Of a stretch of 64,000 nt of DNA, positions 3,073 to 63,051 are shown piece after piece; position 1 is the first letter of the stretch, and every line of letters starts with the position of its first letter. The stretch comes from Paratrimastix pyriformis (taxonomy: Eukaryota > Preaxostyla > Paratrimastigidae). A program made the position numbers and the translations under genes. The notes beneath the pieces are model-generated. The model ran no database searches, was not told where the DNA came from, and worked only from the letters and a program-made list of their open reading frames with translations. The stretch lies in assembly GCA_027972325.1 (NCBI GenBank), contig JAPMOS010000025.1, positions 458,906 through 522,905 of the forward strand, in the 5' to 3' direction.

Positions 3073-3677
3073 CTAAAAAATGTCCGACATCCGGGCCACT
3101 GCCATAAAATCGTTCAAATCGATCAACCCGTCTCCATCGGTATCCACTTCTGCCATCATAGTTCGAAGCTCATCGTCGGAAACCTCGAAACCGATCTGAT
3201 GGGCAACCGTTCGAAGATCTTCGAAGGAAATCAACTCAGGCTCGGGACCCTCCCTTCTGTAGGCCGTGAATAATCTGAAGGCCTTTGTGATTTGATCTTT
3301 GGTTTCCTTGGAGGCCTGGGCCGTAGAAAACCGGGAAAAGGCAGATGAATCGAGGCATCCAAGAGCTGGCAGACCATTCTCGTGGTGAGTAAACTGAGAA
3401 AGGTGTCAAAATTAATGGTCCCAGATTGATCTTTATCGATTGAACTGTAGAGCAATTTGAGCTCCTCCTTGGATGGTTCATATCCCAGGGATCGTAGCAC
3501 AACACGAACATCCTTCACATCGATCTTGGATTGAAGAGCCTTCTCCTCATCAGGATTCTGAACAAAAACGAGGAAGGCATTCCTGATGTCTGAAAGTTGG
3601 CCTTCGGTGAGCTGGATCAACGAGTGGGCTCGTTTACGATCCTTCTCCTCGCGGGCGCTGAGCTCCGTACTTTCCAT
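3073..3677 (-). CDS. Centrin-like EF-hand protein
   Basis: Small calcium-binding protein of the centrin/calmodulin superfamily, 181 aa, probably at basal bodies or the flagellar cytoskeleton. Exons 3677-3375 and 3315-3073 (59-nt intron, donor GTCTG) join in frame and give four EF-hand units. Loop 2 (DKDQSGTINFDTF) and loop 4 (DTDGDGLIDLNDF) have canonical Ca2+ ligands; loops 1 and 3 are degenerate. The LTEGQLSDIRNAF start and the two-lobe layout fit centrins or caltractin-like proteins. The N-terminal 30 residues are basic and unconserved. The ATG is 74 bp from the divergent RPUSD2 start, so the two probably share a promoter. A calmodulin-like assignment cannot be excluded because two hands are lost. 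Confidence 0.82.
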
Positions 3678-3751
3678 AAAGTGGGGAGGAAGGGCGCGGC
3701 GAAACAAACGGCACTGCTCCTGTGACCCTGCTCGCTCTGCAGACTCTCTCG
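3678..3751. promoter_or_regulatory. Bidirectional promoter between centrin-like and RPUSD2-like genes
   Basis: Only 74 bp separate the two outward-facing ATGs. No TATA box is evident. Inferred from gene geometry alone. Confidence 0.5.
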
Positions 3752-62500: not shown

Positions 62501-63051
62501 GTGGTGGTGGTTTGGCGTCATCAGGCGGCATCACTCTCCCATTATTCGTTGTCAAAGGGTGTTCGGGTCACCGCGGCGACTCATTTTGATCTCCGCGCCG
62601 CGCATCCCCAGGTGCCCGAGTCCGGCTTGGTCAAGTACTTGCGGGAACGCAAGCAAGAGGGCTACACCATCCTCGGCCTCGAACAGACCGCCAGCAGCAC
62701 GCACCTGCACCACTACGACTTCCCCGAGAAGGTGGTCTTCCTCCTGGGTCTGTACGACTTGACCTTGTTCGACCGGGTTCGACCGTCCCTGTCCTCTTCC
62801 TTGGTCGCATCTCTGTAGGCAAGGAGCGCGAAGGCATCCCTGTGGAGTATCTCCAGATTGTCGACCGGTGCATCGAAATCCCTCAGTTTGGCCTGATTCG
62901 GTCTGGCGGCATGACCCCGCGGGATATCCGCCGCCTCACACTCTGCCCCCCCTCCAGGTCACTCAATGTGCACGTAAGCTGCTCCATCCTCATCTGGGAG
63001 TACACCCGCCAGCAGCTCAACCGTCAGCCAGCAGCCATCGCCGACTCGTAA
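47554..63051 (+). CDS. TARBP1: TARBP1/TRM3-type tRNA (guanosine-18 2'-O)-methyltransferase
   Basis: SPOUT methyltransferase that makes Gm18 in tRNA D-loops. A very long helical-repeat N-terminal region ([90 protein letters not shown] and more) leads to a C-terminal SpoU domain: [20 protein letters not shown] motif 1, [61 protein letters not shown] motif 2, [20 protein letters not shown] motif 3, ending TAA at 63049-63051. Exons checked: 47554-47781, 47882-47924, 47969-49114 and the last five. Donors GTCTG or GTCCG almost throughout. More than 25 introns, several full of minisatellites, with two tRNA genes in one. Alternative in-frame ATG 47503. Confidence 0.9.
49129..49154 (+). repeat. C26 run in TARBP1 intron
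   Basis: Directly after the donor GTCGG at 49115. Other sense C runs in this gene: about 51647-51670, 52291-52310, 53457-53473, 58747-58761, 60858-60875. One G run of 13 lies at about 52530. Confidence 0.9.
50300..51150 (-). other. Possible antisense gene nested in TARBP1 intron (methyltransferase-like motif)
   Basis: Inside the 1,027-nt intron 50250-51276 the minus strand reads [20 protein letters not shown] followed by [20 protein letters not shown], preceded by a perfect window-style intron (GTCTGCC...CCTTAG, about 50743-50790) and an exon ending [27 protein letters not shown] resembles the DPPW catalytic motif of adenine-N6 methyltransferases. Further on, [20 protein letters not shown] appears in another frame. 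Start, end and joins are not fixed, so this is a candidate only. Confidence 0.3.
52571..52750 (+). repeat. Duplicated acceptor/exon start in TARBP1
   Basis: The exon beginning TGCAG|ACGGCCGATCTC at 52717-52750 has a near copy (two changes in about 33 bases) in the upstream intron at 52571-52604, separated by a CCTCCC-rich spacer. A similar case: GCAGGCGTGTCCTTCTC at about 53225-53241 and 53309-53325. Confidence 0.85.
53566..53700 (+). repeat. CGTCCCGACCTCACC minisatellite
   Basis: Seven to eight imperfect copies of a 15-17 bp unit in a TARBP1 intron, ending about 10 bp before the coding CACACGTTCTTCTGC region. Confidence 0.88.
53883..54080 (+). repeat. Imperfect long repeat, GATGCCATCTGA family
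   Basis: Two copies of a block of about 90-100 bp (CATCCGAAGATGAC and GCGTCCCATATG words at about 53936-53970 and 54038-54067) plus shorter GCCATCTGAATTATGA units, inside a TARBP1 intron. AT-richer than the surroundings. Confidence 0.8.
54526..54680 (+). repeat. GGTTGGGTCCGCCTGG minisatellite beginning at an exon end
   Basis: Four near-identical 17-bp units and degenerate relatives (GGTCGGATC). Each unit contains GGGTCCGCC, itself a match to the local donor consensus, so several cryptic donors are lined up. Confidence 0.85.
56856..57003 (+). repeat. CACATCACCCCCCAAGCC minisatellite
   Basis: Eight copies of an 18-19 bp unit in a TARBP1 intron. Confidence 0.95.
57463..57561 (+). repeat. GGGGCAT heptamer array
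   Basis: About 14 tandem GGGGCAT units in a TARBP1 intron; open in all frames, giving spurious His/Gly/Met-rich ORFs. Confidence 0.95.
58958..59086 (+). repeat. GTGGTCGTCCCTGTG repeat
   Basis: Imperfect 9-18 bp units rich in GTGGTCGTC, right after a donor (GGTCCG) in a TARBP1 intron. Confidence 0.85.
59274..59364 (+). repeat. CACCCATGCCCCCACTCGT minisatellite
   Basis: Five 19-bp copies in a TARBP1 intron. Confidence 0.95.
59700..59850 (+). repeat. GGTTTCGGTTCCCGGCATCGCCTTG repeat
   Basis: Two good copies plus a partial copy of a 60-70 bp unit (GGGGAACCTGGTTTCGGTTC core) in a TARBP1 intron. Confidence 0.85.
60082..60408 (+). repeat. ATC/CAT microsatellite block
   Basis: CATTCAT units, then ATCATCCAGTC units, then more than 35 uninterrupted ATC triplets (60286-60387). 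In a TARBP1 intron; it produces spurious poly-His/poly-Ile and poly-Met frames. Confidence 0.97.
62209..62280 (+). tRNA. tRNA-Gln (CUG), nested in TARBP1 intron
   Basis: 72-nt cloverleaf: acceptor GGTCCTA pairs with TAGGACC, anticodon stem TTGGA/TCCAA around loop CTCTGAA (anticodon CTG), T arm CCTGG/CCAGG with TTCGAGT. The D loop has GG (G18G19). Internal A box TAGTCTAATGG and B box GGTTCGAGTCC are intact, no intron, and T5 at 62285-62289 can terminate Pol III. Same strand as, and wholly inside, the host intron 62087-62611. Confidence 0.96.
62284..62289 (+). terminator. Pol III terminator of tRNA-Gln
   Basis: T5 four bases after the tRNA 3' end. Confidence 0.7.
62359..62430 (+). tRNA. tRNA-Thr (CGU), nested in TARBP1 intron
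   Basis: 72-nt cloverleaf: acceptor GCCTTCC/GGAAGGC perfect, D arm GCTC/GAGC, anticodon stem TGTGC/GCACA around TTCGTAA (anticodon CGT), T arm GAGGG/CCCTC. B box GGTTCGATCCC. Followed by a T9 run at 62435-62443. Lies 78 bp after tRNA-Gln in the same intron. Confidence 0.96.
62435..62443 (+). terminator. Pol III terminator of tRNA-Thr
   Basis: T9 four bases after the tRNA 3' end. Confidence 0.8.

Follow-up and report, generated by a model that had tools for sequence, protein, structure and literature searches.

An altered U1 5' end accompanies GTCYG 5' splice sites in Paratrimastix pyriformis

The tested introns of Paratrimastix pyriformis open with GTCYG rather than the canonical GTRAG, and all eight U1 small nuclear RNA (snRNA) genes that we found in its assembly carry AG in place of UU at nucleotides 5-6. 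These observations, made in a 64,000-nucleotide stretch of contig JAPMOS010000025.1 (C168:458906-522905, hereafter the window) and in the 56.06-Mb, 495-contig assembly to which it belongs, suggest that 5' splice-site (donor) recognition by the major (U2-type) spliceosome has very probably been rewritten in both strands of a single helix, with GTRAG becoming GTCYG in the donors and UU becoming AG in U1. Few RNA sequences are as conserved as ACUUACC, the usual U1 5' end, and U1 itself is near-identical in nearly all eukaryotes.

Results

Donor usage was determined with a spliced protein-to-DNA aligner of our own, which charged all GT and GC donors the same cost and ignored the bases after the first two. 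Protein targets were the sequence letters of solved chains obtained from PDB sequence searches; we take these chains to be human, and the DAW1 target to be algal. The counted set comprised 31 introns from the aligned stretches of five genes (PRP8 13, DAW1 7, OGT 6, RECQ5-like 3 and U1C 2) located on three contigs; 16 of these introns lie inside the window. At +3 the donors had C in 29 cases, T in one, G in one and A in none, while +4 was C in 16, T in 11, G in three and A in one, and +5 was G in 31/31. The GTRAG consensus failed on this set, with +3 A or G in 1/31 and +4 A in 1/31 donors. Among the first 26 donors counted, GTCCG (13) was commoner than GTCTG (9), and position -1 was G in 20. 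The first-pass annotation of the window was therefore right to read a GTCYG donor consensus. One of the GTGCGC exceptions that it named was recovered in the RECQ5-like gene, and its statement that +4 is mostly C or T also held (27/31), although it did not foresee that the C majority at +4 would go unmatched by A5 of U1.

The pattern was consistent from gene to gene. In PRP8 (contig C456), which aligned over two stretches with 451/595 identities (3 insertions, 2 deletions) and 755/874 identities (gapless), 13/13 introns opened with GTC[C/T/G]G, and in DAW1 (window 42715-44466; 220/329 identities, gapless) 7/7 opened with GTC[T/C/G]G. The C-terminal half of OGT (29876-31763; 66/135 and 99/187 identities, a few gaps) contributed six introns, five with GTC[C/T/A]G and one with the GC donor GCCCG. 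The RECQ5-like gene on the minus strand (20451-19826) had donors GTCGG, GTCCG and GTGCG, and U1C (contig C68) had GTCTG and GTTTG. The introns counted in the window, all placed by flat-donor spliced alignment, are as follows, with the first six bases of each donor.

29876..30132, plus strand: OGT intron, GTCCGT (aligned to OGT chain 5npr_A)
30206..30316, plus strand: OGT intron, GTCCGG (flanking identity weak, 2/9 and 3/10)
30421..30545, plus strand: OGT GC-AG intron, GCCCGC
30607..30785, plus strand: OGT intron, GTCCGT
31273..31578, plus strand: OGT intron, GTCAGT (flanking identity weak, 4/10 and 2/10)
31709..31763, plus strand: OGT intron, GTCTGC
42715..42765, plus strand: DAW1 intron, GTCTGC (gapless alignment to DAW1 chain 5mzh_A)
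42889..42948, plus strand: DAW1 intron, GTCTGC
43092..43154, plus strand: DAW1 intron, GTCTGT
43327..43425, plus strand: DAW1 intron, GTCCGT
43570..43914, plus strand: DAW1 intron, GTCCGC
44066..44248, plus strand: DAW1 intron, GTCGGT
44412..44466, plus strand: DAW1 intron, GTCTGG
20298..20451, minus strand: RECQ5-like intron, GTCGGA (aligned to DNA helicase Q5 chain 8rl5_A)
20099..20226, minus strand: RECQ5-like intron, GTCCGC
19826..20007, minus strand: RECQ5-like intron, GTGCGC (junction shifts 2 nt when non-GT/non-AG ends are allowed)

In the OGT GC-AG intron, the GCCCGC donor follows the altered consensus at both +3 (C) and +5 (G). All 31 introns fit U2-type ends, GT-AG with one GC-AG, as the aligner demanded GT/GC-AG. 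In a freer control, run on PRP8, OGT, DAW1 and RECQ, any dinucleotide could open or close an intron at a penalty. The PRP8 and DAW1 introns and the six OGT introns were unchanged, and the third RECQ junction shifted by the 2 nt given above. A seventh OGT intron (31910 or 31925), which we had dropped from the count for its ambiguous join, moved under this control. Also left out of the count was a motif-trained model made earlier for the PRP8 locus, some of whose joins were different or doubtful. The tails of the tested introns appear to contain YTNAC-like stretches.

The same donor was learned without supervision by a generalised hidden Markov model gene finder, self-trained on about 224 kb that comprised the window, the 59 kb upstream of it and 32 short loci (two overlapping). 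Whether started from flat donors or from a canonical GTRAGT matrix, with three settings each, all six runs converged on +3 C at 0.69-0.78 and A at 0.01-0.02. In one run, 156 of 232 introns had solid coding sequence on both sides, and in these +3 was C in 129, T in 15, G in 10 and A in 2, with G at +5 in 114; +3 C was found in 107/130 predicted introns on the window's contig and in 74/102 at the other loci. Stretches of short repeats in the window, at 31354-31520 and 59416-61957 (translated as His, Ile or Pro runs), were scored or read as coding by the finder. As stand-alone proof of introns the finder was rejected, with three of five decoy dinucleotides slightly outscoring GT, and the sole measure on which GT stood out was the information content of the donor (3.05 bits versus 0.96-2.36 for the decoys). 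Because its total score fails to separate GT from the decoys, the finder alone is insufficient and the homology set is the main proof of the donor pattern.

These results also bear on two trivial explanations. That the pattern is an artefact, with joins picked with the motif in mind, is scarcely credible: the first reading was made without tools, and the gene finder cannot by itself prove introns, but flat-donor alignment yields the same kind of joins and the finder abandons GTRAGT even when started from it. Base composition alone, acting through a GC-rich genome (the window is about 63% GC overall and 57-69% per 4-kb block) and C-rich introns, is a highly improbable source of the consensus. 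Predicted introns have a C frequency of 0.32, and among the 26 donors +6 was C in 12, T in 11 and G in three, with C at +7 in 13. Yet G, whose frequency in introns (0.28) comes close to that of C, occupies +3 in 1/31 donors while +5 is G throughout, and the decoy dinucleotides yield weaker motifs that are mostly C-rich. The 29/31 C at +3 is far beyond chance, because the intron C frequency from the gene finder is only about 0.32. Other GC-rich genomes, those of algae, retain a AUACUUACCUG U1 (PMC3033335).

We found eight U1 loci in the assembly by covariance-model search with RF00003, which scored 41 of its 992 first-look candidates. When the U1 body minus its first 12 nt served as a DNA query (8 candidates, 8 scored), the same eight loci came back and no others. 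The loci cover RF00003 model positions 1-166, with E values from 2e-10 to 3.7e-13. In 8/8 the head reads AUACAGACC, compared with the usual AUACUUACC, and the loci open with AUACAGACCUUG where the model consensus opens with AUACUUACCUGG. All copies start ATACAGACCTTG and are identical over their first 58 nt. ACAGACC replaces ACUUACC at the 5' end of every copy, such that nucleotides 5-6 are changed from UU to AG, and neither the RF00003 search nor the headless-body search found a canonical U1 gene in the assembly. Matches to 18 bases of the U1 head in prokaryotic genomes (3) and viral contigs (1) were set aside as chance, as they had no adjoining U1 body or promoter element. The zinc-finger region of U1C, whose exons lie on C68, is conserved. 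A further zf-U1 match, on C86 (L030), was rejected as U1C, as it reads like WBP4.

The U1 genes share an upstream element with the other spliceosomal snRNA genes. The motif CCCATAA lies at -59/-60 in 8/8 U1 loci, at -58 to -60 in the eight loci examined of nine full-length U2 genes, at -52 to -54 in 7/7 U5 loci and at -66/-67 in 4/4 U6 loci, and was thus present with family-specific spacing in 27/27 loci examined (L001-L027). It also occurs at -61 of a U12-like locus (L054). In its sequence and its position near -60 it resembles the Dictyostelium upstream element DUSE. The common element supports the start base assigned to U1 and ties U1 to the other snRNAs, of which the window's own contig carries three U5 and two U6 copies. 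Judged from their sequence, the U1 genes look intact and appear to belong to one genome with the rest of the machinery, which argues against pseudogenes or contamination.

The other parts of the splicing machinery that we inspected are of the usual kind. The U6 ACAGAGA box is intact in 4/4 copies found, all of the same sequence; the branch-pairing segment of U2 has the usual letters; U5 loop 1 is unchanged (GCCUUUUACUA); and PRP8 is conserved, its 874-residue gapless stretch being 86% identical to the solved PRP8 chain. U6 and PRP8 are not obviously changed parts. Because the functional segments are normal in the U2, U5 and U6 genes examined, which also carry the same upstream element, donor recognition would appear to have been rewritten through U1. 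METTL16-like exons are present on C332 (L028), with the structure of a U6 A43 methyltransferase as best match, as is a SNRNP27 homologue on C9 (L052; 34.7 bits, above the cut-off of 23.1). Both homologues occur despite the pyrimidine at +4, opposite to the pattern in yeasts. Minor-spliceosome (U12-type) donors, ATATCC or GTATCC, are read by U11, and 0/31 tested introns had such a donor. A U12-like snRNA gene lies at C432:103343-103517 (L054; 44.9 bits, below the Rfam cut-off of 53), suggesting that the genome probably still has a minor spliceosome in addition to its altered major one.

Elsewhere in the window, the stretch 7281-7926 has ATG at its start, TAA at its end and a GTCTGT inside, and two neighbouring tRNA genes lie on the plus strand at 62209-62280 and 62359-62430.

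Discussion

The altered U1 end and the altered donors would fit each other in the usual register, in which U1 nucleotide 9-k faces donor +k. The expected pairs are C8 with +1 G, A7 with +2 U, G6 with +3 C (or with +3 U as a G-U wobble), A5 with +4 U and C4 with +5 G, while +4 C and +6 C, facing A5 and A3 of U1, may be A-C mismatches that are tolerated and that GC pressure has made more frequent. The arrangement mirrors the canonical one, where a +3 purine fits a U1 uridine (A by pairing, G by wobble); here a +3 pyrimidine fits a guanosine (C by pairing, U by wobble). In support of this model, the predicted duplex energy over the 26 donors averaged -7.7 kcal/mol with the U1 found versus -4.0 kcal/mol with canonical U1, being better in 25/26, and AG ranked second of the 16 possible pairs of bases at U1 nt 5-6. 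A changed U1 5' end had been predicted by the first-pass annotation and is present in all eight genes, and the compensating bases that it suggested looking for can be named: G6, which can pair with +3 C, and A5, which can pair with +4 T, with the U6 box as usual.

Several results nevertheless weigh against a recognition system rewritten through U1. The commonest +4 base, C (16/31), has no Watson-Crick partner in A5, and GG at U1 nt 5-6 would bind clearly better, at a predicted -10.9 kcal/mol. The U1 matches score 50.8-60.2 bits, under the Rfam gathering cut-off of 69.5, and a further U1 variant could have escaped the covariance-model search, given the fraction of first-look candidates scored. 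Moreover, the total score of the gene finder was 11335 for GT and 11154-11440 for the five decoy dinucleotides. The first of these points could be met by a second reader of +4 C donors, either a U1 variant that has G5 and escaped both searches, or modification of A5 (e.g. to inosine). The abundance of +4 C and the superior pairing of GG speak for such a reader; we nonetheless regard it as quite improbable, as two different searches, the first with 41 of 992 candidates scored, find just eight U1 genes, all with A5; no sign of RNA editing was seen either, although no search was aimed at it.

Alternatively, the donor could be set mainly by U6 (and PRP8), with U1 having merely followed or mattering little. 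The intact ACAGAGA box, to whose ACAGA the donor bases +2 to +6, UCUGU, are perfectly complementary, lends this some substance, and yeasts shift their +4 preference without a change in U1 (PMC10581693). Set against it are the eight U1 genes, which look intact and whose G6 compensates exactly, and the conservation of the U1C region, together with the presence of METTL16 and SNRNP27 homologues, whose loss accompanies +4 U in the yeasts described in that paper. We therefore consider a donor dictated by U6 unlikely. The first-pass annotation had offered U6/PRP8-driven choice as its other possibility; the U6 box is intact and the PRP8 stretch well conserved, and the complementarity to ACAGA leaves room for a contribution.

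Compensation through U1, which we prefer, may itself involve U6. AUACAGA, the first seven bases of U1, also occurs in the ACAGAGA region of U6, and UCUGU at donor +2 to +6 is complementary to both. As U1 and U6 share AUACAGA, both RNAs could read one donor in one register, and for the same reason we infer that after hand-over donor +2 to +6 would pair with U6 ACAGA, which for U6 would extend beyond donor +4 to +6. We thus propose, tentatively and with confidence a little short of even, that the U1 5' end has come to duplicate the reading head of U6 in sequence and that the donors have moved to the complement of both, so that the site would be read twice, by the same word and in the same register. 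If true, twin heads would remove the conflict between U1 and U6 at +3 and +4 that other eukaryotes carry.

A switch of U1 and donors together in a natural genome would show that what suppressor experiments classically achieve in the laboratory has also happened in evolution, and would make it testable how lock-and-key partners can change in every gene. The altered pair also separates the demands that U1 makes on the donor from those of U6. In practical terms, mis-annotation of this genome is to be expected from gene finders built on GTRAG, and annotation at the Rfam cut-off would skip these U1 genes because they score below it.

Compared with the canonical U1/GTRAGT system (RF00003), the one described here shares U2-type GT-AG introns, a full-model U1 match, the U1C region, U6 ACAGAGA, the U2 branch-pairing sequence and U5 loop 1. 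It differs in having AG rather than UU at U1 nt 5-6 and, in the donor, C at +3 and a pyrimidine at +4 rather than a +3 purine and +4 A.

Among systems already described, ACUUACC is reported as invariant wherever U1 was identified in a survey of yeasts (227/230) and outgroups (9/10), in which +4 U in Saccharomycotina accompanies loss of METTL16/SNRNP27K (PMC10581693). The two cases are alike in a genome-wide change of the donor at +4; here, however, U1 and +3 have changed too, and METTL16/SNRNP27K homologues are present. The same paper names a change of pseudouridine 5 (psi5) to A in U1 as a possible compensation for a switch from +4 A to U. The U1 head is also reported as unchanged in Aureococcus and Micromonas (PMC3033335), in the nucleomorphs of Guillardia and Bigelowiella (PMC6461891) and in Giardia (PMC3510501), and Entamoeba is said to be without U1 (PMC13292270). 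Within the open-licence literature, as far as its text was available, we found no compensated U1/donor pair in any genome, most subscription papers being outside this scope. The splicing of Fritillaria, an animal whose introns are mostly not GT-AG, likewise departs from the usual intron ends across the genome, but its U1 is described as keeping the 5' end strictly intact, and duplication of U2AF and changes in N6-methyladenosine are invoked instead (PMC13326754). The nearest precedent in the material available is the diplonemid S. specki, where a naturally occurring U1 gene likewise differs at its 5' end (PMC12621601). There, one of two U1 genes carries a stretch of C and the other is conserved, whereas in P. 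pyriformis 8/8 copies carry a two-base change that matches the donors.

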